Assembly (NCBI RefSeq): GCF_019186805.1
Contig: NZ_CP066783.1
Location: 611,501-675,500 of the forward strand
DNA length: 64,000 nucleotides
Reading direction: 5' to 3'
DNA from: Comamonas fluminis
GTDB lineage: Bacteria; Pseudomonadota; Gammaproteobacteria; Burkholderiales; Burkholderiaceae_C
Shown: piece by piece, positions 8,689-19,813 of the stretch
Numbering within the stretch: position 1 is the first letter of the stretch
Layout of the letters: every line of letters begins with the position of its first letter
The notes under the pieces: model-generated
Seen by the model: only the letters and a program-made list of their open reading frames with translations
Told to the model about the DNA's origin: nothing
Database searches by the model: none
Program-made: the position numbers and the translations under genes

Positions 8689-9984
8689 TTACATATGGTT
8701 GGGCAGCACTGTCACGATCTGCGGAAAGATCCAGAGTATGACGAGTGCAATCACCATCAGCACAAAGTAGGGCAGGCAGACTCGGGCCAGGTAGGTGATC
8801 TGCTTGCCGGTCATGCCTTGCAGCACAAACAGATTGAAGCCCACGGGCGGCGTGATCTGGGCGGTTTCTACCGTAATGACGAGAAAGATGCCGAACCACA
8901 GAGGGTCGATACCCGCCGCCTGGATGATGGGAAGCACCACGGCCGATGTCAGCACGATGGTGGAGATGCCATCCAGAAAGCAGCCCAGCACGATATAGAA
9001 CAGGCCCAGCACCACCATCAGCATGGCGGGCGACAGGTTCAGGCTGCCCACATATTCGGCCAGTTGACGCGGCAGGCCGATATAGCCCATGGACAAGGTC
9101 ATGAAGGCCGCGCCCGCCAGAATCAGCGCGATCATGCAGTACAGGCGTGTGGCGCCAAATAATGCGGCTTTGAAGTTGTCCCAGGTCAGCGCGCCCTGCA
9201 CGGCGGAAAGAATCAGCGAGCCCACCACGCCAATGCCAGCAGCCTCCGTAGCGGTGGCAATGCCGGTGTAGATGCTGGCGATGACCGAGGCAATCAGCAG
9301 CACCACAGGAATCAGATGGCGGGATTCGTAGATCTTTTCCTTGAAGCTCAGGCTTGAATCGGCCTTGGGCACCTTGCCGGGGTTCATCAGTGCCCAGACG
9401 ATGATCCAGCCGCTGAACATGATGGCCAGCATGATGCCGGGGAGCACGCCTGCCATGAACAGTTTGGAGATCGACAGCTCGGCCGATACGCCATACACGA
9501 TCAGGATGATGGACGGCGGAATCAGCAAGCCCAGCGTGGCAGGCCCGCCCAGCGAGCCAATCACCATGTTCTCGGGGTAGCCGCGCTTCATCAGCTCGGG
9601 CACGTTCATCTTGCCCACGGTGGCGCAGGTGGCGGCCGATGAGCCGGACACTGCCGCAAAAATGGTGCAGCCGATCACATTGGTGTGCAGCAGGCGCCCG
9701 GGCAGGGCGTTGACCCAGGGGGCGAGACCCCGGAACATGCTTTCGCTCAGATTGGTGCGGTAGAGGATTTCACCCATCCACACAAACAGCGGCAGGGCTG
9801 TCAGCGTCCAGCTGCTGGCAGAGCCCCAGATGGTCATGGCCATGGCATCACCCGCCGCGCGTGCCGTGAAAAATTCCATGCCAAACCAGGCAACGCCTGC
9901 AAGCGTCAGGCCCACCCAGACGCCGCCGCTGAGCAAGACAAGCAGCACCACAATGAGGAGGATGCTGGCGGTAATTTCATTCAT
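8689..9984 (-). CDS. dctM: TRAP transporter large membrane subunit (DctM)
   Basis: Main permease subunit of a tripartite ATP-independent periplasmic transporter that imports organic acids using an ion gradient. 431 residues, almost entirely hydrophobic, compatible with about 12 membrane segments. Recognisable family stretches are GSSAATCATVGKMNVPELMKRGY, given here only by its start and end (about residues 123-145), GLLIPPSIILIVYGV and QITPPVGFNLFVLQGMTG near the C terminus. Overlaps dctQ by eight bases, so the two are translated together. The substrate cannot be read from the sequence. Confidence 0.95.
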   Translation of the reverse strand: MNEITASILLIVVLLVLLSGGVWVGLTLAGVAWFGMEFFTARAAGDAMAMTIWGSASSWTLTALPLFVWMGEILYRTNLSESMFRGLAPWVNALPGRLLHTNVIGCTIFAAVSGSSAATCATVGKMNVPELMKRGYPENMVIGSLGGPATLGLLIPPSIILIVYGVSAELSISKLFMAGVLPGIMLAIMFSGWIIVWALMNPGKVPKADSSLSFKEKIYESRHLIPVVLLIASVIASIYTGIATATEAAGIGVVGSLILSAVQGALTWDNFKAALFGATRLYCMIALILAGAAFMTLSMGYIGLPRQLAEYVGSLNLSPAMLMVVLGLFYIVLGCFLDGISTIVLTSAVVLPIIQAAGIDPLWFGIFLVITVETAQITPPVGFNLFVLQGMTGKQITYLARVCLPYFVLMVIALVILWIFPQIVTVLPNHM

Positions 9985-10483
9985 GGTGCGCGTCCTCGTT
10001 CACTGCGTTTTGGCGTTTTCCTTGTAGCTCCAGCACCAGATCATCGAGCAGTGCTATGAAAAAGATAACGGTGCCCAGTGCCATGAAGATCTGCGGTATC
10101 CACATGGGGGTGGCGTCGATACCTACCGAGATGTCTTCAATATCCCAGGACTGCCAGGTCAGCCGGACCGAATAGAAAGCCAGAAAGCCGCTCAGAAGCG
10201 TTGCAATGCTCAGTGCTAGGACTTCCATCACCTTGAGTGGAGTTCCCTTGAGCGCACCCAGCAACAGCGTGACGCGGATGTGCTCGCCTTTTTTGAAAGT
10301 GCTGGCCAGTGCCATAAAGCCAGCGCCTGCCATGGCGTAACCGGCATAGGCATCTGTGCCGGGGGCGCTGAAGCCGACCAGGCGGCTCAGAATGGTGAGC
10401 AGCACCATCACCAGAATGCCGATCATGGCCAGCCCCGCCAGCCATGCGGCTGTGCTGTACAGGCCGTCGAGAAGTTTGCGCAT
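9977..10483 (-). CDS. dctQ: TRAP transporter small membrane subunit (DctQ)
   Basis: 168 residues with four predicted membrane helices (WLAGLAMIGILVMVLLTIL, AYAGYAMAGAGFMALAST, LALSIATLLSGFLAFY, IFMALGTVIFFIALLDDL), the usual layout of DctQ, which pairs with DctM. I choose ATG 10483 because GGAG sits at the right distance before it and the upstream extension lacks similarity. Ends in a charged tail. Third in order from dctP. Confidence 0.93.
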   Translation of the reverse strand: MRKLLDGLYSTAAWLAGLAMIGILVMVLLTILSRLVGFSAPGTDAYAGYAMAGAGFMALASTFKKGEHIRVTLLLGALKGTPLKVMEVLALSIATLLSGFLAFYSVRLTWQSWDIEDISVGIDATPMWIPQIFMALGTVIFFIALLDDLVLELQGKRQNAVNEDAHHE

Positions 10484-10499
10484 GTATGAGCTCCAGCGC

Positions 10500-10533
10500 G
10501 CTACGCCCATCTGCGGTGGCGGATGGGCGTAGC
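10500..10533. other. Intercistronic hairpin between dctP and dctQ
   Basis: Perfect 12-base inverted repeat GCTACGCCCATC / GATGGGCGTAGC with a ten-base loop, without a T run. It lies between the dctP stop and the dctQ ribosome site. In TRAP operons such a structure could stabilise the 5' (binding-protein) message or attenuate the membrane genes, giving more DctP than DctQM. Confidence 0.7.
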
Positions 10534-10571
10534 TGTGTAAGGAGGAAAAAGTGTCTCGAATGGCGCGGGCC

Positions 10572-11552
10572 TTATTTGGCTTTGTAGGCATCCAGAATGG
10601 CTTTGCCATCTGCGCCAGCCTTCTCGATCCATTCCTTGATGACGGTGTCGCCCACCTTGGCCAGGTCAGCCTTCAACTGGGCAGAGCCGGGGTCTACCGT
10701 CATGCCACCGGCTTTCAGTGCGGCGATGGATCGGACATCCACCTCCCGGGATTCCTTCCAGCCGCGCTCTTCGGCGGTGGCCGCAGCTTTGAGGAGAGCA
10801 TCCTGCTCGGACTTGCTCAGCGCGGCAAATGCCTTTTTGCTCACGGTGACGGCATTCTTGGGAATCCAGGCCTGCACGTTGTAGTAATACTTCAGGCTTT
10901 CGAACAGCTTGTTGTCCGCACCTGTGGCGCTGGATGTGATCAGGCCATCCACCACGCCAGTAGCCAGTGCCTGGGCCAGTTCGGCTTCCTGCACGGTTAC
11001 CGGCTGGGCTCCAATGAGTTCGCCGATGCGGGCTGTGGTGGGTGAATACACACGCCACTTCATGCCTTTCAGGTCGGCAGCCGAATTGATGGGCTTCTTG
11101 GTATAGATGCCCTGGGGCGGCCAGGCCACGGAATAAAGAAGTACTTGTCCTTGCTTGTCCAGCAGCTTTTGCAGCGCAGGCTTTTGGGCTTGGTAGAGCT
11201 TGAAGGCCTCGTCATAGTTGCTCACCAGAAAGGGCAGGCCGTCCACGCCAAAGATTTGCGATTCGTTCTGGAAGCTGACCAGGAAGAACTCACCCATCTG
11301 CGCATTGCCAGTCTGCACAGCGCGTTTGATTTCGGGCATTTTGAACAGCGATGCACCAAAGTGCGGTGTGATCTTGAGCTTGCCGCCGGTGGCTGCGTCC
11401 ACATCCTTCACAAAAAGCTCGTTGTTCTTGGAGTGAAAGTTGCCGGGGCCATATGCCGTGGCGAAATCCCATTTGGTCTGGGCTGCCGCTGCGCTGGCAA
11501 AGCCGATGCTGGTAATCAAAGTGGCGGTGGCGCAGAAGATGTGACGCTTCAT
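10572..11552 (-). CDS. dctP: TRAP transporter periplasmic substrate-binding protein (DctP)
   Basis: 326 residues. Sec signal peptide MKRHIFCATATLITSIGF..ASAAAA with cleavage before QTKWDFA. The mature protein has the DctP fold: GPGNFHSKNNELFVKDV, GLPFLVSNYDEAFKLYQ, PINSAADLKGMKWRVYS with the conserved substrate-contacting arginine, and GVVDGLITSS. Start ATG 11552 follows an AGGAGTCACC sequence. First gene of the operon dctPQM; an operator-like palindrome lies upstream at 11674-11687. Substrate unknown, though the nearby GntR gene and 5-oxoproline operon make a related carboxylate possible. Confidence 0.94.
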   Translation of the reverse strand: MKRHIFCATATLITSIGFASAAAAQTKWDFATAYGPGNFHSKNNELFVKDVDAATGGKLKITPHFGASLFKMPEIKRAVQTGNAQMGEFFLVSFQNESQIFGVDGLPFLVSNYDEAFKLYQAQKPALQKLLDKQGQVLLYSVAWPPQGIYTKKPINSAADLKGMKWRVYSPTTARIGELIGAQPVTVQEAELAQALATGVVDGLITSSATGADNKLFESLKYYYNVQAWIPKNAVTVSKKAFAALSKSEQDALLKAAATAEERGWKESREVDVRSIAALKAGGMTVDPGSAQLKADLAKVGDTVIKEWIEKAGADGKAILDAYKAK

Positions 11553-11673
11553 GGTGACTCCTGTGTAAGTGAGACATTCAGCCTGCGGTGCAAGCCTCAA
11601 GGTAGTGACGAATGACTAGCAAGTTGCAGGCCAAAACTATCACCGCTGTCTCAGATAAGGCACTAGGGATTTC

Positions 11674-12292: not shown

Positions 12293-12970
12293 TTACACGC
12301 TCTTGATGCCGGCTTCCGCCAGTTGGCGGGCGTAGGCAGCGAGGATGATGCGCTCTGAATGCACCAGGTAATCGTGCAGCTCTGCTGCTGCATCTGCAGG
12401 CTTGCTGTTTTCAAAGGTTTGCAGGATGTGCTGGTTCATTTCTACATAGGGCGCATGCAGAAAGCGCGGGTCGCGCAGCAGGCCAAAGGCCAGGCGCAGC
12501 TCGGCCAGCAGGTGCGAGAACATTTCATTGAGGCGTTCGCTATCGGCCAGGGCCACGATGGCTTTATGAAACGCCATATTGGCCGTACCGACTTCGGCCC
12601 AGTTCTCTTGTTCGCTGAAGCGCAGCCCATCGGCTACTGCCTGATGCATCAGCGCACGGGCCGGGTGCATGGGGTAGGCCTGGGCCAGTGCCTGGCACTC
12701 GATCATGCGGCGCACGCGGTAGATGTCGATGATGGACGCCATGCTGGGGACGGCCACCGACACGCCCTTGTTGGGCTCGTGCACCAGCAGACCTTCCTTG
12801 GTCAGTACGCGAAACACTTCGCGCAAGGTGTTGCGCGAGATGTCCAGCGCTTCGCTGAGAGCGGCTTCGGACAGGCGCTGCCCTGGTGCCAGCTCTGCGT
12901 TGACCAGCTTTTCTCGTATCTCGTCGGCTATCCGCTCGGTCAGATTCTGGGTGTCTGTTGCGGCTTTCAT
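12293..12970 (-). CDS. GntR-family regulator with FCD domain
   Basis: 225 residues. N-terminal winged HTH at about 10-75 (LVNAELAPGQRLSEAALSE, ISRNTLREVFRVLTKEGLL), then a helical FCD ligand-binding domain with the expected histidines/acidic residues (FHKAIVALADSERLNEMF, MNQHILQTFE). ATG 12970 is preferred over 12988 because GGGAGA lies six to eleven bases upstream. It diverges from the 5-oxoproline operon at 13263 and its gene is followed by the TRAP operon; candidate operators lie at 13101-13129 and 11674-11687. FCD regulators usually sense a small carboxylate, so 5-oxoproline or a TRAP substrate is a reasonable guess. Confidence 0.92.
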   Translation of the reverse strand: MKAATDTQNLTERIADEIREKLVNAELAPGQRLSEAALSEALDISRNTLREVFRVLTKEGLLVHEPNKGVSVAVPSMASIIDIYRVRRMIECQALAQAYPMHPARALMHQAVADGLRFSEQENWAEVGTANMAFHKAIVALADSERLNEMFSHLLAELRLAFGLLRDPRFLHAPYVEMNQHILQTFENSKPADAAAELHDYLVHSERIILAAYARQLAEAGIKSV

Positions 12971-13100
12971 AGGTCTCCCATCAGTCATGGCCTGAGTGTA
13001 GCGACTGCTGGATTGGGCCAATTTTTCCCAAAAAAATGCCAAAACCTAGGGTTTGCCCTGTAATTGTTATTTAATTGTTCTTTAGAAAATGAAATTTGTG

Positions 13101-13262: not shown

Positions 13263-13982
13263 ATGCCTGTTGACATCAATTTGTGGCCGCTGATTGGCGT
13301 GCTCATCATCATTGCGGGCTTCGCGCTGCGCTTTAACCCCATGCTGGTGGTCATCGTGACCGCCATCGGCACGGCCTTTGCGGCGGGCTTTCCGCTGGAC
13401 AAGGTGCTGGCCGCCATTGGCACCGGTTTTATCAAGACGCGCAATCTGCCGCTCATCATCTTGCTGCCACTGGCCGTGATTGGTCTGCTGGAGCGCCATG
13501 GTCTGCGTCAGCATGCGCAGAACTGGATCAGCTCCATCAAGTCGGCAACGGCCGGTCGCCTGCTCATCGTCTATCTGGCTGCGCGCCAGTTGACGGCTGC
13601 TATTGGCCTGACCAGCCTGGGCGGTCACCCCCAGATGGTGCGCCCGCTGTTGGCCCCCATGGCTGAAGGCGCAACGGAAAGCCGCTACGGCAAGCTGTCT
13701 GCGAAGGTGCGTGAAAAGCTGCGAGCCATGTCTGCCGCGACCGACAACGTGGGTCTGTTCTTTGGTGAAGACATTTTTGTGGCCTTTGGTGCCATCGTGC
13801 TGATGACCACCTTCCTGAAGGAAGCGGGTATCGAGGTTGAGCCGATTCATGTGGCGCTGTGGGGCATTCCGACGGCGACCTGCGCGTTCTTGATTCATGC
13901 GTTCCGCCTGCACCGTCTGGACAAGCAACTGGCGCGTGAAATTGCTGCAGAACAGAAAGCAGCCCAGGGAGAACAGGCATGA
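13263..13982 (+). CDS. 5-oxoproline transporter subunit, DUF969 family
   Basis: 239-residue inner-membrane protein with several hydrophobic segments (LWPLIGVLIIIAGFALRF, MLVVIVTAIGTAFAAGF, LPLIILLPLAVIGLLERHG). DUF969 proteins occur next to DUF979 proteins and pyroglutamate-metabolising enzymes and are annotated as 5-oxoproline transporter subunits on that basis. ATG 13263 is preceded by CTGGAGG. The stop overlaps the DUF979 start (ATGA), so the two subunits are coupled. First gene of the operon. Confidence 0.88.
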   Translation: MPVDINLWPLIGVLIIIAGFALRFNPMLVVIVTAIGTAFAAGFPLDKVLAAIGTGFIKTRNLPLIILLPLAVIGLLERHGLRQHAQNWISSIKSATAGRLLIVYLAARQLTAAIGLTSLGGHPQMVRPLLAPMAEGATESRYGKLSAKVREKLRAMSAATDNVGLFFGEDIFVAFGAIVLMTTFLKEAGIEVEPIHVALWGIPTATCAFLIHAFRLHRLDKQLAREIAAEQKAAQGEQA

Positions 13983-14932
13983 CCATCACCATTCAATACC
14001 TGTACTACCTCGTCGGCGTGGTGCTGGCGGTTACCGCCGTCATGACGCTGCGCGATGCCAGCAACCCGCGCCGTTTCTCGGCGGGCCTGTTCTGGGCGCT
14101 GTATGCGCTGGTGTTTCTGGTGGGCGACTTGCTGCCACCCGCATGGGTGGGCGCGGTGGCCATCGTCATGGCGCTGATCGCCGGCTTTGGTGGCGTGCTG
14201 GGTGGCAAGCACCAGCCACGCACGGATGCGCAATACCTGGAAAGCGCCAAGCGTCTGGGCAACAAGCTGTTTGTGCCCGCGCTGGCCATTCCGCTCATCA
14301 CCATGGTGGGCACGCTGTCGGCCAAGCATCTGGTTTTTGGCGGTGTGCCCTTGATCGACCCCAAGAACAGCACGCTGGTCAGCCTGGGCATTGGCTGCGT
14401 GATTGCGCTGGGGCTGGCCTGCAAGATGACGCGTGAAACCCCGGTGCAAGGCCTGCGTGAATCGCACCGCCTGATTGATGCACTGGGCTGGGCCCTGGTG
14501 CTGCCGCAGATGCTGGGCATGCTGGGCCTGGTGTTCTCCGATGCGGGTGTGGGCAAGGCCGTGGCCTATGTCACCACCACCTACATCAACATGGACGTGC
14601 GCTTTGTGGCCGTTGCCGTGTATGTGATTGGCATGGCGCTGTTCACCGTCATCATGGGCAATGGCTTTGCGGCCTTCCCGGTGATGACCGGCGGTGTGGG
14701 CGTGCCCGTGCTGGTGGGTGTGTATCACGGCGACCCCGCTGTGATGGCGGCGGTGGGCATGTTGTCGGGCTACTGCGGCACGCTGTTGACGCCCATGGCG
14801 GCCAACTTCAACCTGGTGCCAGCGGCGCTGCTGGAAATTGACAAGAATGCGGTGATCAAAGCGCAGGTGCCTACGGCCATCACGCTGCTGATCGTGAACG
14901 TGTTCTTGCTGAACTTCCTGATGTTCCGTTGA
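13979..14932 (+). CDS. 5-oxoproline transporter subunit, DUF979 family
   Basis: 317-residue polytopic inner-membrane protein, partner of the DUF969 protein. Hydrophobic helices alternate with conserved loops ([21 protein letters not shown] in part, [53 protein letters not shown]). Start overlaps the preceding stop by four bases and its own stop overlaps the pcp start. Transport function is family knowledge from gene context; the transported molecule is inferred from the enzymes that follow. Confidence 0.88.
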
Positions 14933-15612
14933 TGGAAAAAACTGCTATGACTGCGCCTGCTGCCCCCCGCATTCTTTTGACCGGCTTTGAGCCTTTTGAC
15001 CAAGACACCGTCAACCCCTCCTGGGAAGTGGCGCGTGCGCTGAATGGCGAGCTGATTGCCGGTGGCCAGGTGCATGCCGTGCAACTGCCATGTGTATTTG
15101 GCGCGGCCATGCAGGTACTGGATGAAGCGTTGGCGCAGCTGCAGCCCACGCTCATCATCAGCCTGGGTCTGGCGGGTGGGCGCACCGACATCACCCCCGA
15201 GCGCGTGGCCATCAATATCGACGACGCACGCATCCCCGACAACGCGGGCAATCAGCCTGTGGATGCATCGGTGGTGGAAAAGGCCCCCGCGGCCTACTTC
15301 TCCACCTTGCCCATCAAGGCCATGGTGCGCCATCTGCGCGATGCAGGCATTCCCGCTTCGGTGTCCAACACTGCGGGCACCTTTGTCTGCAACCACGTGT
15401 TCTACGCGCTCATGCACCGCCTTGCGCGCCGGGCTGCGCCGGGCGTGCGCGGCGGATTTATCCACATACCGGCGCTGCCGCAGCAGGCAGCGCAGCACCC
15501 AGGTATGGCCAGTATGGCGCTGGAGACGCAGGTTACAGGCATACGCGAAGCCATTCGCACAGCGATGACAGTGCAGCAGGACTTGCTGGAAAACGCAGGT
15601 CAGCTGCACTGA
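14932..15612 (+). CDS. pcp: Pyroglutamyl-peptidase I
   Basis: Removes N-terminal pyroglutamate (5-oxoproline) from peptides in the cytoplasm. 226 residues; peptidase C15 signature residues all present: glutamate in [14 protein letters not shown], cysteine in [14 protein letters not shown], histidine in [10 protein letters not shown]. The substrate loop [15 protein letters not shown] is near the N terminus. ATG 14932 overlaps the DUF979 stop (TGATG); an ATG five codons later (14947) is possible. It would feed 5-oxoproline to the downstream oxoprolinase. Confidence 0.95.
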
Positions 15613-15628
15613 TCGCGAGGAGAGAGAA

Positions 15629-16387
15629 ATGAAAATGGATTTGAACAGCGACCTGGGCGAGAGCTTTGGCGCCTGGACCATGGGCGACGATGCCGCCATG
15701 CTGGACATCGTCAGCAGCGCCAACGTGGCTTGCGGTTTTCATGCGGGCGATGCGGCTGGCATTCTGGCCACGCTCAAAGCTGCCAAGGCCCGCAACGTGG
15801 TGGTGGGGGCGCATGTGGCCTACCGCGATCTGGCTGGCTTTGGCCGCCGCAATATGGATGTGGCCAGCAGCGATCTGGTGGCTGATGTGATCTACCAGAT
15901 CGGCGCCTTGCAGGGCCTGGCGCAGGTGGCAGGCACCACCGTGAAGTATGTGAAGCCGCATGGCGCGCTGTACAACACCATTGCCCAGGACAAGCGCCAG
16001 GCCACCGATGTGATCAACGCCATGAAGGCGATTGACCCGTCGCTGGTGCTGATGGCGCTGGCCGGCTCGCCCCTGATTGGCTGGGCACGCGATGCCGGCC
16101 TGACCGTGGTGGCCGAAGCCTTTGCCGACCGTGGCTACACGCCCAGCGGCGCGCTGGTGTCGCGCCGCGAACCCGGTGCGGTGCTGCACGACGAGGCCCT
16201 GATTGCCCGGCGCATGCTGACCTTGGTGCGCGACGGCGTGATCGAGGCTGTGGATGGCAGCATGGTGCGCGTGGAGGCTGACTCCATCTGCGTGCATGGC
16301 GACAGCCCCGGCGCCGTGGCCATTGCTCGCACGATCCGCCAGCGCTTTGAACAAGAAGGCGTGCAGATCGCCTCGTTTGTGGCTTGA
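15629..16387 (+). CDS. pxpA: 5-oxoprolinase subunit A (LamB/YcsF family)
   Basis: Subunit of the bacterial ATP-dependent 5-oxoprolinase that opens 5-oxoproline to glutamate. 252 residues, the full family length, with the diagnostic N terminus [46 protein letters not shown] and [17 protein letters not shown]. Preceded by GAGGAGAG. Ends 14 bases before the ATG of the pxpBC fusion. Confidence 0.96.
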
Positions 16388-16401
16388 ACGGGATAAGCGA
16401 G

Positions 16402-18018
16402 ATGCGTTTTCTTCCCGTCAACCGCCAGGCGATTCTGGTGGAGCTGGCCGATCTGCAGCAGACACTGGTGCTGCTGGCTTCGCTGCAGGCACAGCCCATT
16501 GAAGGCGTGCAGGAACTGGTGCCCGCTGCACGCACCATCCTCGTGTATTTCTCGCCGCAACGTATTACCGCCGCAGCACTGGTGCAGGCCATTGCCGGTC
16601 GCGACCTGCAGGGATCGGTCCAGCGCTCGGATGTGCTGGTGGAAATCCCCGTGCACTACGACGGCGAAGACCTTGCCGAAGTGGCGCAGATCCTGGGTAT
16701 CAGCGCCGATGAAGTGGTGCGCCGCCATACGGGCAGCGAATGGTCGGTGGCCTTCACCGGATTTGCGCCGGGCTTTGCGTACCTGAGCGGAGGCGACGCC
16801 ACCTTCAATGTGCCGCGCCGCGCCACACCGCGCACCAAGGTGCCTGCGGGCGCCGTGGCGCTGGCCGGTACCTTCAGCGCGGTCTACCCGCAGGCCAGCC
16901 CCGGCGGCTGGCAGATCATTGGCGTGACGGATACGGCCATGTGGGACCTGGAGCGTGATCTGCCTGCGCTGCTGCAGCCTGGGTACCGCGTGCGCTTTGT
17001 GGATGCAGAGAAAACCATAGCTGCTTCAGCGCCTGAATTAAACCTTTCCTTGTCAAAAGATATGGAAATCGAGAGCGGGTGCGCTGAACCTGCTCCTGAA
17101 AAAGAGTGCGCTGCATTGCGCGTGCGGGCCACGGGCCTGCTCACCGTGTTCCAGGATCTGGGTCGCCACGGTCAGGCCGGGCAGGGTGTATCCGCCTCCG
17201 GCGCCATGGACCAGGCCGCGCTCAAATCGGCCAATCGTCTGGTGGGCAATGCCAGCAATCTGCCCGCACTCGAAACCGTGGGTGGCGGTCTGGCGCTGCA
17301 AAGCGTGGGCGAGAACGTGGTGGCCGTCACCGGGGCCGATGCACCGCTGACCATTACCACCGCCCAAGGCCAGCGCTGGAGCGCACCGTCTTACGCCGCC
17401 GTGGCACTGGCCGATGGCGATACCTTGACCGTGGGCCAACCGGTGGCTGGCGCCCGCTGCTATGTGGCAGTGCGTGGCGGCTACCAGGTTGCACCGGTGT
17501 TGGGCAGCGCCGCTACCGACACGCTGGCCCATGTTGGCCCACCCGCTTTGCAAGCAGGGCAGTTACTGGCCGTGCAGCCCGCCGCGCATGCGGTGACGGC
17601 TGCGCCGGAGCTGCCGCCTGCGCATCTGCCAGCCGTGGATGCAGAAGTCGTGCTGGATGTGGAATTGGGCCCGCGCACCGACTGGTTCACGCCCGAGGCC
17701 GTGGCCCTGCTGGCCAGCCAGCGCTGGCAAGTCACTCCGCAATCCAACCGCGTGGGCCTGCGCCTGGCGGGAGATGTGGCACTGACCCGCGCTATCACCG
17801 CCGAGCTGCCCAGCGAAGGCACGCCACTGGGCGCGATTCAGGTGCCCGCAAGCGGCCAGCCCGTGCTGTTTCTGGCCGATCACCCATTGACCGGCGGCTA
17901 CCCCGTAATCGGCTGTGTGGCGCCGCACCACCTGGATCTGGCGGGGCAAATTCCCGTTGGCGCCTGGATTCGTTTTAACCCTGTACGTTCTTTTGAAGAA
18001 CTCACTCCCGCCCCGTGA
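16402..18018 (+). CDS. pxpBC: Fused 5-oxoprolinase subunits B and C
   Basis: 538 residues, equal to PxpB plus PxpC in one chain. Residues about 1-210 are PxpB/KipI-like (SDVLVEIPVHYDGEDLAEVA, FTGFAPGFAYLSGGD, PRRATPRTKVPAGAVALAG); residues about 240-535 are PxpC/KipA-like (GLLTVFQDLGRHGQAGQGVS, ANRLVGN, LPSEGTPLGAIQVPASGQP, DHPLTGGYPVIG). The joining linker around residues 205-235 contains a dispersed palindromic element (17011-17070). ATG 16402 gives the proper N terminus; an earlier TTG (16384) is less likely. PxpB/PxpC domains are homologous to the carboxyltransferase part of urea carboxylase, which matters given the next gene. Confidence 0.94.
   Translation: MRFLPVNRQAILVELADLQQTLVLLASLQAQPIEGVQELVPAARTILVYFSPQRITAAALVQAIAGRDLQGSVQRSDVLVEIPVHYDGEDLAEVAQILGISADEVVRRHTGSEWSVAFTGFAPGFAYLSGGDATFNVPRRATPRTKVPAGAVALAGTFSAVYPQASPGGWQIIGVTDTAMWDLERDLPALLQPGYRVRFVDAEKTIAASAPELNLSLSKDMEIESGCAEPAPEKECAALRVRATGLLTVFQDLGRHGQAGQGVSASGAMDQAALKSANRLVGNASNLPALETVGGGLALQSVGENVVAVTGADAPLTITTAQGQRWSAPSYAAVALADGDTLTVGQPVAGARCYVAVRGGYQVAPVLGSAATDTLAHVGPPALQAGQLLAVQPAAHAVTAAPELPPAHLPAVDAEVVLDVELGPRTDWFTPEAVALLASQRWQVTPQSNRVGLRLAGDVALTRAITAELPSEGTPLGAIQVPASGQPVLFLADHPLTGGYPVIGCVAPHHLDLAGQIPVGAWIRFNPVRSFEELTPAP
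17011..17070. repeat. Palindromic element inside the pxpB-pxpC linker
   Basis: Contains CATAGCTGCTTCAGCGCCTGAA, written here as AGC-N7-GCGC-N-TG, and encodes a low-complexity linker between the PxpB and PxpC halves. Matches the AGC..GCGC core of the other dispersed elements; degenerate copy. Confidence 0.5.
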
Positions 18019-18027
18019 GGTCCTTCC

Positions 18028-19758
18028 ATGATTTCTAAAGTTCTGATTGCCAACCGTGGTGAGATCGCCGTCCGTATCGCCCGCGCCTGCGCCGACTATG
18101 GCGTGAAGTCCGTAGCCGTTTACGCCAATGCCGATATCGACGCCCTGCATGCACGCATGGCCGATGAAGCGTTTGGTCTGGATGGCGACAAGCCTGCAGA
18201 CAGCTATCTGAATATCGACAAGCTGATTGCCATTGCCAAAAAATCCGGTGCCGACGCCGTGCACCCCGGCTACGGCTTTCTGTCGGAGAGCGAAGCCTTT
18301 GCGCGCGCCGTGCTGGATGCCGGCCTGATCTGGATTGGCCCGCGCCCCGACACCATTGCCCAGCTGGGCGACAAGGTCGAGGCACGCAAGATTGCGCTCA
18401 AGGTGGGGGCGCCGCTGGTGGCGGGCACGGCCGACCCCGTGAAAAACGCCGACGAGGTGCTGGCGTTTGCGCAACAGCACGGCCTGCCCATCATCATCAA
18501 GGCCGCGTTTGGCGGCGGCGGGCGCGGCATGAAGATCGCGTGGCGCATGGATGAGGTGGCTGAGCTGTACGAGTCGGCCGTGCGCGAAGCCGTGACCGCT
18601 TTTGGCCGTGGCGAATGCTTTGTCGAGCAGTTCCTCGACAAGCCGCGCCATATCGAAGCCCAGGTGATTGCCGATACGCACGGCCATGTGGTGGTAATGG
18701 GCACGCGCGACTGCTCGCTGCAGCGGCGCAACCAGAAACTGGTGGAAGAGGCGCCTGCACCTTTCATCACTGAAGAGCAGCGCGAAAAAATTCATAGCGC
18801 TGCACGCAATATCTGCGCCGAGGCTGGCTATATCAGCGCGGGAACCGTGGAGTTTTTGCTGTCTGCCAATGGCGCTATCTCTTTCCTCGAAGTGAACACC
18901 CGGCTGCAGGTGGAGCACACGGTGACCGAGGAAACCACGGGCGTGGATCTGGTGATTGAGCAGCTGCGTGTGGCCGATGGCCTGCCGCTGTCCATCACTG
19001 CAACGCCAGCGCCGCGTGCGCACTCCATTGAATTCCGCATCAATGCCGAAGATGTGGGGCGCGGCTTTCTGCCCACGCCCGGCCCGGTGGTGAAATTCCT
19101 CCCGCCATCAGGCCCCGGTGTGCGCGTGGATTCGGGGGTGGAATCGGGCTCCATCATTCCTGGCACTTTTGATTCGATGATGGCCAAGCTCATCGTCACC
19201 GGCGCCACGCGCGAGCAGGCCATGGCCCGTGCCCGCCGCGCGCTGCGCGAGTTTCAGATCGAAGGCGTGGCCTCGGTGCTGCCGTTTCACAAGGCGGTCA
19301 TGGATCACCCCGACTTTGTGGGTACTGATGGCTTCAAGGTGCATACGCGCTGGATCGAATCCGACTTTGCCGAACCGCTGGCCGCTGCCGTGCGTGCCGA
19401 GCCACTGGCCGACACCAGCTTGCTGCGCACCGCTATCGAAATCGACGGCCGCCGCGTAACCCTGGGCTTGCCGGCCGTGCTGCTGCAGGGCTTGGCAGCA
19501 GGCGCTAATGGCGGCGTCACTGCAGCTGCAGAAAAAGAAACGATCGACCCGGCCGCAGTGGCCTCGCCCATCGCTGGCAATCTGCATGCGTGGAAAGTCG
19601 CTGATGGCGATGAAGTCAAGGAAGGCGATGTGATCGCCGTGATGGAAGCCATGAAAATGGAGATGCAGGTCTCTGCGCACAAGGCGGGCCGCATTTCGCT
19701 GGCCGCACAGGCGGGCACTGCACAGGCGCTGGGCGCGGTGATTGCGCATATCCGCTGA
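18028..19758 (+). CDS. Biotin carboxylase fused to biotin carboxyl carrier domain
   Basis: 576 residues. Residues about 1-445 form a biotin carboxylase ([34 protein letters not shown], the ATP-grasp loop [29 protein letters not shown]); the C-terminal about 70 residues are a biotinyl domain with the acceptor lysine in EAMKMEM. No carboxyltransferase domain is present, unlike a complete carboxylase, and no carboxyltransferase gene is adjacent except the PxpB/PxpC homologue. Start nine bases after the pxpBC stop, clearly the same operon. Could be an acyl-CoA carboxylase alpha subunit, but the context favours a role with PxpBC. Confidence 0.93.
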
Positions 19759-19777: not shown

Positions 19778-19813
19778 AACGCGGCCCTGGAAAATTTCTA
19801 GGGCCGCGTTTTT
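19778..19813. terminator. Bidirectional terminator after the 5-oxoproline operon
   Basis: Stem AACGCGGCCCT / AGGGCCGCGTT with an eleven-base loop and T runs on both sides. The convergent TetR gene ends inside it (stop at 19798-19800). Confidence 0.88.

Follow-up and report, generated by a model that had tools for sequence, protein, structure and literature searches.

PxpABC is described as the commonest prokaryotic 5-oxoprolinase (PMC13274462), and in those parts of the published record available to us its way of using ATP is only assumed. Here we examine a 64,000-nucleotide stretch of the Comamonas fluminis genome (NZ_CP066783.1, positions 611,501 to 675,500; hereafter the window), in which a forward-strand operon at 13263-19758 encodes PxpA, a PxpB-PxpC fusion (PxpBC), and a protein uniting a biotin carboxylase (BC) with a biotin carboxyl carrier protein (BCCP), here termed BC-BCCP. 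An initial annotation of the window proposed that 5-oxoproline is carboxylated with the help of biotin before its ring is opened. Judging from sequence and gene context, we consider it likely that the operon specifies such a biotin-dependent 5-oxoprolinase, with an architecture like that of urea carboxylase distributed between two proteins.

The idea is partly in print or deposited already. One source, in the portion accessible, states that carboxyltransferases of this kind may 'collaborate with other BCs' and reports PxpB/PxpC-type carboxyltransferase genes in Thermococcales (PMC3199775), while a mycobacterial complex discussed below (PDB 9yx5) offers a physical precedent. No statement on biotin dependence of PxpABC was found in the literature searched, coverage of which was partial.

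Relative to the PxpABC systems of Escherichia coli, Bacillus subtilis, and Corynebacterium glutamicum, the window shares PxpA, the PxpB and PxpC modules, and surrounding 5-oxoproline genes, but its PxpB and PxpC are fused, lie below NCBI cut-offs, and are accompanied by a dedicated BC-BCCP. With urea carboxylase (urea amidolyase; Kluyveromyces lactis structures 3va7 and 5i8i) it has in common the BC, BCCP, CT_A_B, and CT_C_D modules and the carboxyltransferase fold. It differs in using two polypeptides instead of one, in placing CT_C_D ahead of CT_A_B, in bearing Arg at the position of Lys1605 and Gln at that of Asn1330, and in having PxpA in place of allophanate hydrolase. A six-gene operon of Staphylococcus aureus which includes pxpB, pxpC, pxpA, accB, and accC likewise brings BC and carrier together with pxp genes, although there the subunits are separate genes and the authors, in the text available, place accB and accC under fatty acid synthesis (PMC11315280). 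Two further systems are described in the accessible part of a single source (PMC8453981). The caprolactamase CapAB resembles the window system in hydrolysing a lactam with ATP and bicarbonate, and its bicarbonate dependence has been measured, with lactam carboxylation being one of three proposed mechanisms; however, its sequence is unlike PxpABC and it has no biotin carboxylase. In the 5-oxoprolinase of Pseudomonas putida, component A is a hexamer of dimers (64 and 51 kDa) that hydrolyses ATP in the presence of oxoproline, while ring opening requires a second, distinct component B.

Partnership of BC-BCCP with PxpBC

The operon comprises six same-strand genes, overlapping or separated by at most 16 nt, in the order DUF969, DUF979, Pcp, PxpA, PxpB-PxpC fusion, and BC-BCCP, all recognized by Pfam above curated cut-offs. 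The initial annotation had the coordinates and modules right, but its five soluble proteins are instead four (Pcp, PxpA, PxpBC, and BC-BCCP) alongside two predicted membrane proteins. The fusion (16402..18018, +) lies in a single 544-aa frame with a CT_C_D domain at residues 7-197 and a CT_A_B domain at residues 268-532; an ATG start at 16402, which opens a conserved MRFLPVN, is likelier than the TTG at 16384 from which we number residues. BC-BCCP (18028..19758, +; 576 aa) contains Biotin_carb_N, CPSase_L_D2, Biotin_carb_C, and, at its C-terminus, Biotin_lipoyl. Pfam matched no PF01039 carboxyltransferase in this protein, nor in any of the eight proteins scanned in or beside the operon, the genome's six PF01039 places all being elsewhere. 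It thus holds that the fusion is followed by a BC and biotinyl protein lacking a carboxyltransferase, and that the two adjacent proteins jointly possess every module of a urea-carboxylase-like enzyme.

The catalytic residues of E. coli BC, which we take to be K116, K159, H209, K238, E276, E288, N290, R292, E296, and R338, all have counterparts in BC-BCCP, either exactly aligned or one position earlier. Its biotinyl domain retains an unbroken EAMKM motif, with the biotin-acceptor Lys543 encoded at 19654..19656 (+); this motif is present in 81 of 82 pxp-linked BC-BCCP proteins examined. An ATP-grasp BC with its catalytic residues and an MKM biotinyl domain, as expected of a biotin-dependent carboxylase, are therefore both in place, while the PF01039 gene expected beside an acyl-CoA carboxylase alpha subunit is missing. 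This last point is weak evidence, since AccA3, the best PDB match to BC-BCCP (736 bits over residues 2-576), serves several carboxyltransferases.

The association with PxpBC was assessed in a sample of 299 Pseudomonadota genomes. Using as a query the last 143 residues of BC-BCCP, which lie beyond the BC domain, and scoring up to 13 candidates per genome, we found 14 matches at 93-290 bits, followed by the next at 46 bits. All 14, that of the window among them, lie within ~3 kb of PxpBC, such that this type of BC-BCCP is exclusive to PxpBC within the Pseudomonadota sample. In 299 Pseudomonadota genomes sampled in like manner under identical handles, CT_C_D matches occurred in 136, and 130 listed PxpB/PxpC places were fetched with flanks of up to 8 kb, leaving out long urea carboxylase frames, and annotated with profiles built from window proteins; linkage was scored when BC lay on the strand of the pxp genes and no more than 3.5 kb away. 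A fused PxpBC was adjacent to a fused BC-BCCP in all 12 cases fetched, whereas split PxpB/PxpC genes were accompanied by BC and BCCP in 9 of 118 and by BCCP alone in one more. The linkage of L132 is doubtful, given that its BCCP-BC lies 1.9 kb from PxpA and its close relative L129 has no BC; at L110 a BC-BCCP on the opposite strand falls outside the count. In total 21 of the 130 loci were linked to BC and BCCP, against an expectation by chance of ~1.6, a rough figure based on a span of 9 kb and a density of 6 BC genes per 4.5 Mb. Of these 21, the 12 that are fused form one clade and are not independent.

Named loci from the genome collection extend this pattern, with BC in 78 of 80 and a biotinyl part seen in 76. 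Of the two exceptions, the contig of L189 ends at the fusion, and L260, from a metagenome bin, has no BC in the following 2.8 kb. The closest named relatives are mostly from Comamonas. Within Actinobacteria, where 48 of 197 genomes gave a match and 30 of 55 listed places were fetched, 29 loci were kept after a score filter removed L297, a urea-carboxylase-like locus (TIGR02712, 828 bits, below cut-off). One of two fused and 5 of 27 split actinobacterial loci were BC-linked, which may be a slight undercount, as 10 of the 30 were fetched with 4 kb flanks and some reach contig ends. Five actinobacterial genomes with split pxp genes and BC/BCCP genes each have two BC matches and one gene with two PF01039 stretches; this tally of biotin carboxylases against classical carboxyltransferases is not decisive, as the second BC might, for instance, belong to a pyruvate carboxylase.

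Over 82 loci, distances between BC-BCCP proteins correlate with those between PxpBC proteins (r = 0.906; for PxpA and PxpBC, 0.82), a correlation that is evidence of co-inheritance only. Where full length, the other types of BC next to split pxp genes are 44-48% identical to the window BC-BCCP, so that pxp genes have associated with more than one kind of biotin carboxylase. BC linkage undergoes 8 state changes in a 187-row tree, in which the linked split loci fall in separate parts; the tree was built with FastTree only and is subject to long-branch warnings. A compact set of PxpA, cyclase, fusion, and BC-BCCP genes is also plasmid-borne in Pseudomonas aeruginosa (L312), where it is flanked by two insertion sequences, and in Pantoea dispersa (L313).

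A physical precedent is provided by PDB entry 9yx5, released 2025-11-26, which according to its title and chain list is a long-chain acyl-CoA carboxylase complex of Mycobacterium smegmatis with MSMEG_0435-MSMEG_0436 bound. It includes a chain of AccA3, the closest solved relative of BC-BCCP, and its 'allophanate hydrolase' subunits 2 and 1 match the PxpC and PxpB of the window. Like the window, the entry combines a BC-BCCP of the AccA3 type with PxpC and PxpB partners; in the mycobacterial complex, however, AccA3 is a component of an acyl-CoA carboxylase and the two partners are separate chains, in contrast to the fused partners and dedicated BC-BCCP of the window. No publication describing 9yx5 was found in the literature searched. 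Transcripts of MSMEG_0435-0436 are reported, in the accessible text, to rise about twofold under nitrogen limitation (PMC4617892). Actinobacterial pairs of this kind, such as L276 (504 bits to chain 9yx5_V), fall near the fused clade in our tree, with supports of 80-92 at the intervening forks. The best near-full-length actinobacterial match to BC-BCCP is 60-62% identical in 10 of 12 genomes and 72% and 48% in the others. Two of the 12 (G299 and G307) have one AccA3-type copy beside PxpBC and a second elsewhere; in the remaining 10 the best copy lies away from PxpBC, consistent with sharing. Taken with the exclusive association above, the dedicated partnership of BC-BCCP and PxpBC is real and well supported.

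Carboxyltransferase scaffold and candidate substrate

Modelled with AlphaFold2 from 24 sequences (pLDDT 85), the fusion matches the structures of TTHA0988, MSMEG_0435/0436, YbgJK of E. coli, and the urea carboxylase of K. lactis. Compared with five bacterial urea carboxylases, the PxpC half gives a profile probability of 99.9% and PxpB one of 99.7%, the latter from a forced global alignment. By these comparisons, PxpBC and urea carboxylase have a common carboxyltransferase scaffold. Both MAFFT and profile alignments place Lys1605 of urea carboxylase opposite Arg145 of the fusion (codon 16816..16818, +); this lysine is the likely general base of urea carboxylase, according to the accessible part of its description (PMC5770610). 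The position of K. lactis Asn1330 corresponds to Gln486 (codon 17839..17841, +); of 240 PxpC rows, 237 have Gln here, 1 has Ser, and 2 have a gap, while the five bacterial urea carboxylases have Asp. Presumably this is the position which sets urea enzymes apart from guanidine enzymes. We accordingly rejected a urea or guanidine carboxylase identity, as the Gln does not fit and the single-chain urea carboxylase model TIGR02712 gives 147.2 bits for PxpBC and 490.3 bits for BC-BCCP against a cut-off of 1303.85. That BC-linked and BC-less proteins agree in this Arg and this Gln is a hint that the two classes share their substrate and their chemistry. That Arg145 could bind the carboxylate of 5-oxoproline is speculation. 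Three divergent split PxpB proteins encoded beside BC and carrier genes (L163, L168, and L169) keep Lys at the general-base position, and possibly represent a different carboxylase inside the same family.

PxpA (LamB/YcsF family, the ring-opening subunit; 15629..16387, +) matches PF03746 at 333.5 bits and passes NF003814, the NCBI model for the PxpABC subunit (372 bits, cut-off 226). Over 210 aligned rows its residues H36, D39, H60, H109, D165, H221, and D223 are 93-100% conserved, and comparison of BC-linked with BC-less proteins revealed a single class-specific position. PxpA is far from PxpBC in three genomes (G337, G392, and G370), and an actinobacterial genome with PxpB/PxpC (G442, locus L296) has no PxpA match at all. 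No Hydantoinase_B match, and so no eukaryotic-type 5-oxoprolinase, was seen in the window's genome.

The gene neighbourhood points to 5-oxoproline as the substrate. Upstream of PxpA lies Pcp, a pyroglutamyl peptidase (14932..15612, +; PF01470 (Peptidase_C15), 264.8 bits; TIGR00504, 286.2 bits, cut-off 201.75), which starts at ATG 14932 or 14947, the listed frame opening at TTG 14929. The Pcp and D-glutamate cyclase (PF07286) families are both named for reactions that yield 5-oxoproline, and one or both occur in 64 of the 78 named loci in which a fusion is linked to BC. Among the BC-linked Pseudomonadota loci they occur in 6 of the 12 fused and in 1 of the 9 split ones. Pcp is present in 30 of the 78, and a D-glutamate cyclase family gene in 36, 34 of which are without Pcp; the latter gene suggests a D-5-oxoproline branch. 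On both plasmids a PF07286 gene sits between pxpA and the fusion (L312, 3185-3991; L313, 4211-5008).

Genes for transport and regulation complete the picture. DUF969 (13263..13982, +; PF06149, 294.8 bits) and DUF979 (13979..14932, +; PF06166, 392.3 bits) encode membrane proteins which are probable partner halves of a transporter in the 5-oxoproline module; the pair is found beside BC-linked as well as BC-less pxp genes. A strong terminator-like hairpin, detected in a consensus scan and consisting of a 15-pair stem and a T-rich tail (19778..19810, +), closes the operon. Divergent from it is a GntR/FCD regulator (12293..13042, -; PF00392, PF07729), probably a 5-oxoproline sensor. Beyond this gene lie those of a tripartite ATP-independent periplasmic (TRAP) importer, namely the membrane subunits DctM (8689-9984) and DctQ (9977-10609; together 8689..10609, -; PF06808, PF04290) and the binding protein DctP (10572..11600, -; PF03480), a predicted pyroglutamate receptor. 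Its best PDB matches are 2pfz (368.5 bits) and 2pfy (272 bits), which we take for DctP6 and DctP7, two receptors of Bordetella pertussis. As far as the accessible sources go, both of these were crystallized with pyroglutamate, DctP7 binding it at 0.3 uM (PMC13274462, PMC11668362, PMC5812351), and PxpR of C. glutamicum is, like the divergent regulator, of the GntR type (PMC13274462). The TRAP genes (8689-11600, -) and DUF969/DUF979 may offer two import routes for one pathway.

Proposed mechanism and its alternatives

In the mechanism we propose, 5-oxoproline would be supplied by Pcp, the TRAP importer, and probably DUF969/DUF979. BC-BCCP, as its family and intact motifs suggest, would convert ATP and bicarbonate to carboxybiotin, and its swinging biotinyl domain would visit the PxpB-PxpC fusion, which as the carboxyltransferase would carboxylate the 5-oxoproline lactam. 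PxpA would then hydrolyse the weakened C-N bond, opening the ring, and the resulting N-carboxyglutamate would shed CO2 to leave glutamate. The net reaction, 5-oxoproline + ATP + water to glutamate + ADP + phosphate, would keep the stoichiometry of one ATP, with CO2 as a recycled activating group. ATP use would thereby fall to the ATP-grasp protein, BC-BCCP, no ATP-binding domain being found by Pfam in PxpBC. This reading is plausible rather than proven. The partnership with PxpBC and the 5-oxoproline neighbourhood speak for the proposal of the initial annotation, while the loss of Lys1605 and the presence of BC beside only 21 of 130 loci speak against it.

These and several other observations weigh against biotin-dependent ring opening. 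Firstly, gene linkage is evidence of partnership and not of chemistry, and a same-strand BC within 3.5 kb is lacking at 109 of the 130 PxpB/PxpC loci from Pseudomonadota and at 23 of the 29 from Actinobacteria, such that either a housekeeping biotin carboxylase serves those loci or BC is not universally required. In the main clade, fusion and BC linkage have a single origin, and there are too few independent pairs for a pairs test of their association. Secondly, the lysine thought to act as general base is replaced by Arg in 237 of 240 PxpB rows (92/92 BC-linked fused, 134/134 BC-less, and 11/14 BC-linked split). The fused halves also miss the NCBI PxpB/PxpC cut-offs (TIGR00370, 136.3 against 145.55; NF045499, 165.1 against 500; TIGR00724, 229.8 against 230.2), although the Pfam cut-offs for CT_C_D and CT_A_B are both reached. 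Thirdly, neither Pcp nor D-glutamate cyclase was seen in 14 of the 78 named, 6 of the 12 fused, and 8 of the 9 split Pseudomonadota BC-linked loci, and PxpA was unseen in 9 of the 78. Neighbours of the kind found here are not confined to BC-linked genes, DUF969-DUF979 and Pcp each occurring in 9 of 109 BC-less Pseudomonadota split loci and all three in 7. Finally, the pair bound in 9yx5, of which we rely on the deposited title and chains, may be a regulator of AccA3 instead of a catalytic partner.

Such considerations lend themselves to an alternative in which PxpBC itself phosphorylates 5-oxoproline and the neighbouring BC-BCCP has another role, for instance in regulation or in providing carboxybiotin for another enzyme. 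The many loci without adjacent BC agree with it, and a 1987 paper argues in its title for a phosphorylated intermediate. Published accounts, in the parts accessible, assume phosphorylation, and ATP hydrolysis by co-purified PxpB/PxpC is cited there. Nevertheless we consider this alternative improbable, as PxpBC lacks an ATP-binding domain, the BC-BCCP type lies solely beside PxpBC in 299 genomes, and a PxpB-PxpC pair has been deposited in complex with an AccA3-containing carboxylase.

A second alternative retains the biotin-dependent carboxylase but assigns it a different substrate, be it some other lactam, a cyclic amide, or D-5-oxoproline alone, while an ordinary PxpABC handles L-5-oxoproline. 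The divergence of the fused clade, which is under the NCBI cut-offs, and the frequent D-glutamate cyclase family gene would fit this, as would the coexistence of BC-linked and BC-less copies in some genomes (G198, with L116 and L129; G206, with L163 and L047). We nonetheless think it a poor prospect, since Pcp, which releases 5-oxoproline from peptides, accompanies 30 of the 78 named loci, a pyroglutamate-type DctP adjoins the operon, and the PxpA residues and the Gln486 position are alike in BC-linked and BC-less classes.

That BC-BCCP is an acyl-CoA carboxylase alpha subunit with a distant carboxyltransferase, a case which the initial annotation had raised against itself, is very unlikely given that all 14 strong matches in 299 genomes lie beside PxpBC and that the genome has four further biotin carboxylases, even though AccA3 is the closest solved relative and one PF01039 gene (C2:2490908-2492269, L173), which seems to share an operon with genes for an acyl-CoA synthetase and a short-chain dehydrogenase/reductase, has no BC in the 19 kb fetched.

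Implications for 5-oxoproline metabolism

A dedicated BC-BCCP, confined to PxpBC in the genomes sampled, names the likely ATP-using subunit of the 5-oxoprolinase and makes its mechanism directly testable. Should the biotin-dependent reading of the operon be true, a lactam would join the substrates of biotin carboxylases, with CO2 serving as a recyclable activating group. The deposited mycobacterial complex 9yx5 would acquire a rationale, and the annotation of such genes as 'allophanate hydrolase' or 'acetyl-CoA carboxylase' would be worth revisiting.

A broader extension, conceivable although we lean against it, is that all PxpABC systems are biotin-dependent, with PxpB-PxpC a carboxyltransferase everywhere and the ATP-using subunit being whatever BC and carrier the cell offers: a dedicated protein here, AccA3 in mycobacteria, and AccB-AccC in E. 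coli and B. subtilis. If so, 5-oxoproline, a common product of metabolite damage, would be activated by CO2 and not by phosphate, which would couple its removal to biotin and the machinery of fatty acid synthesis.

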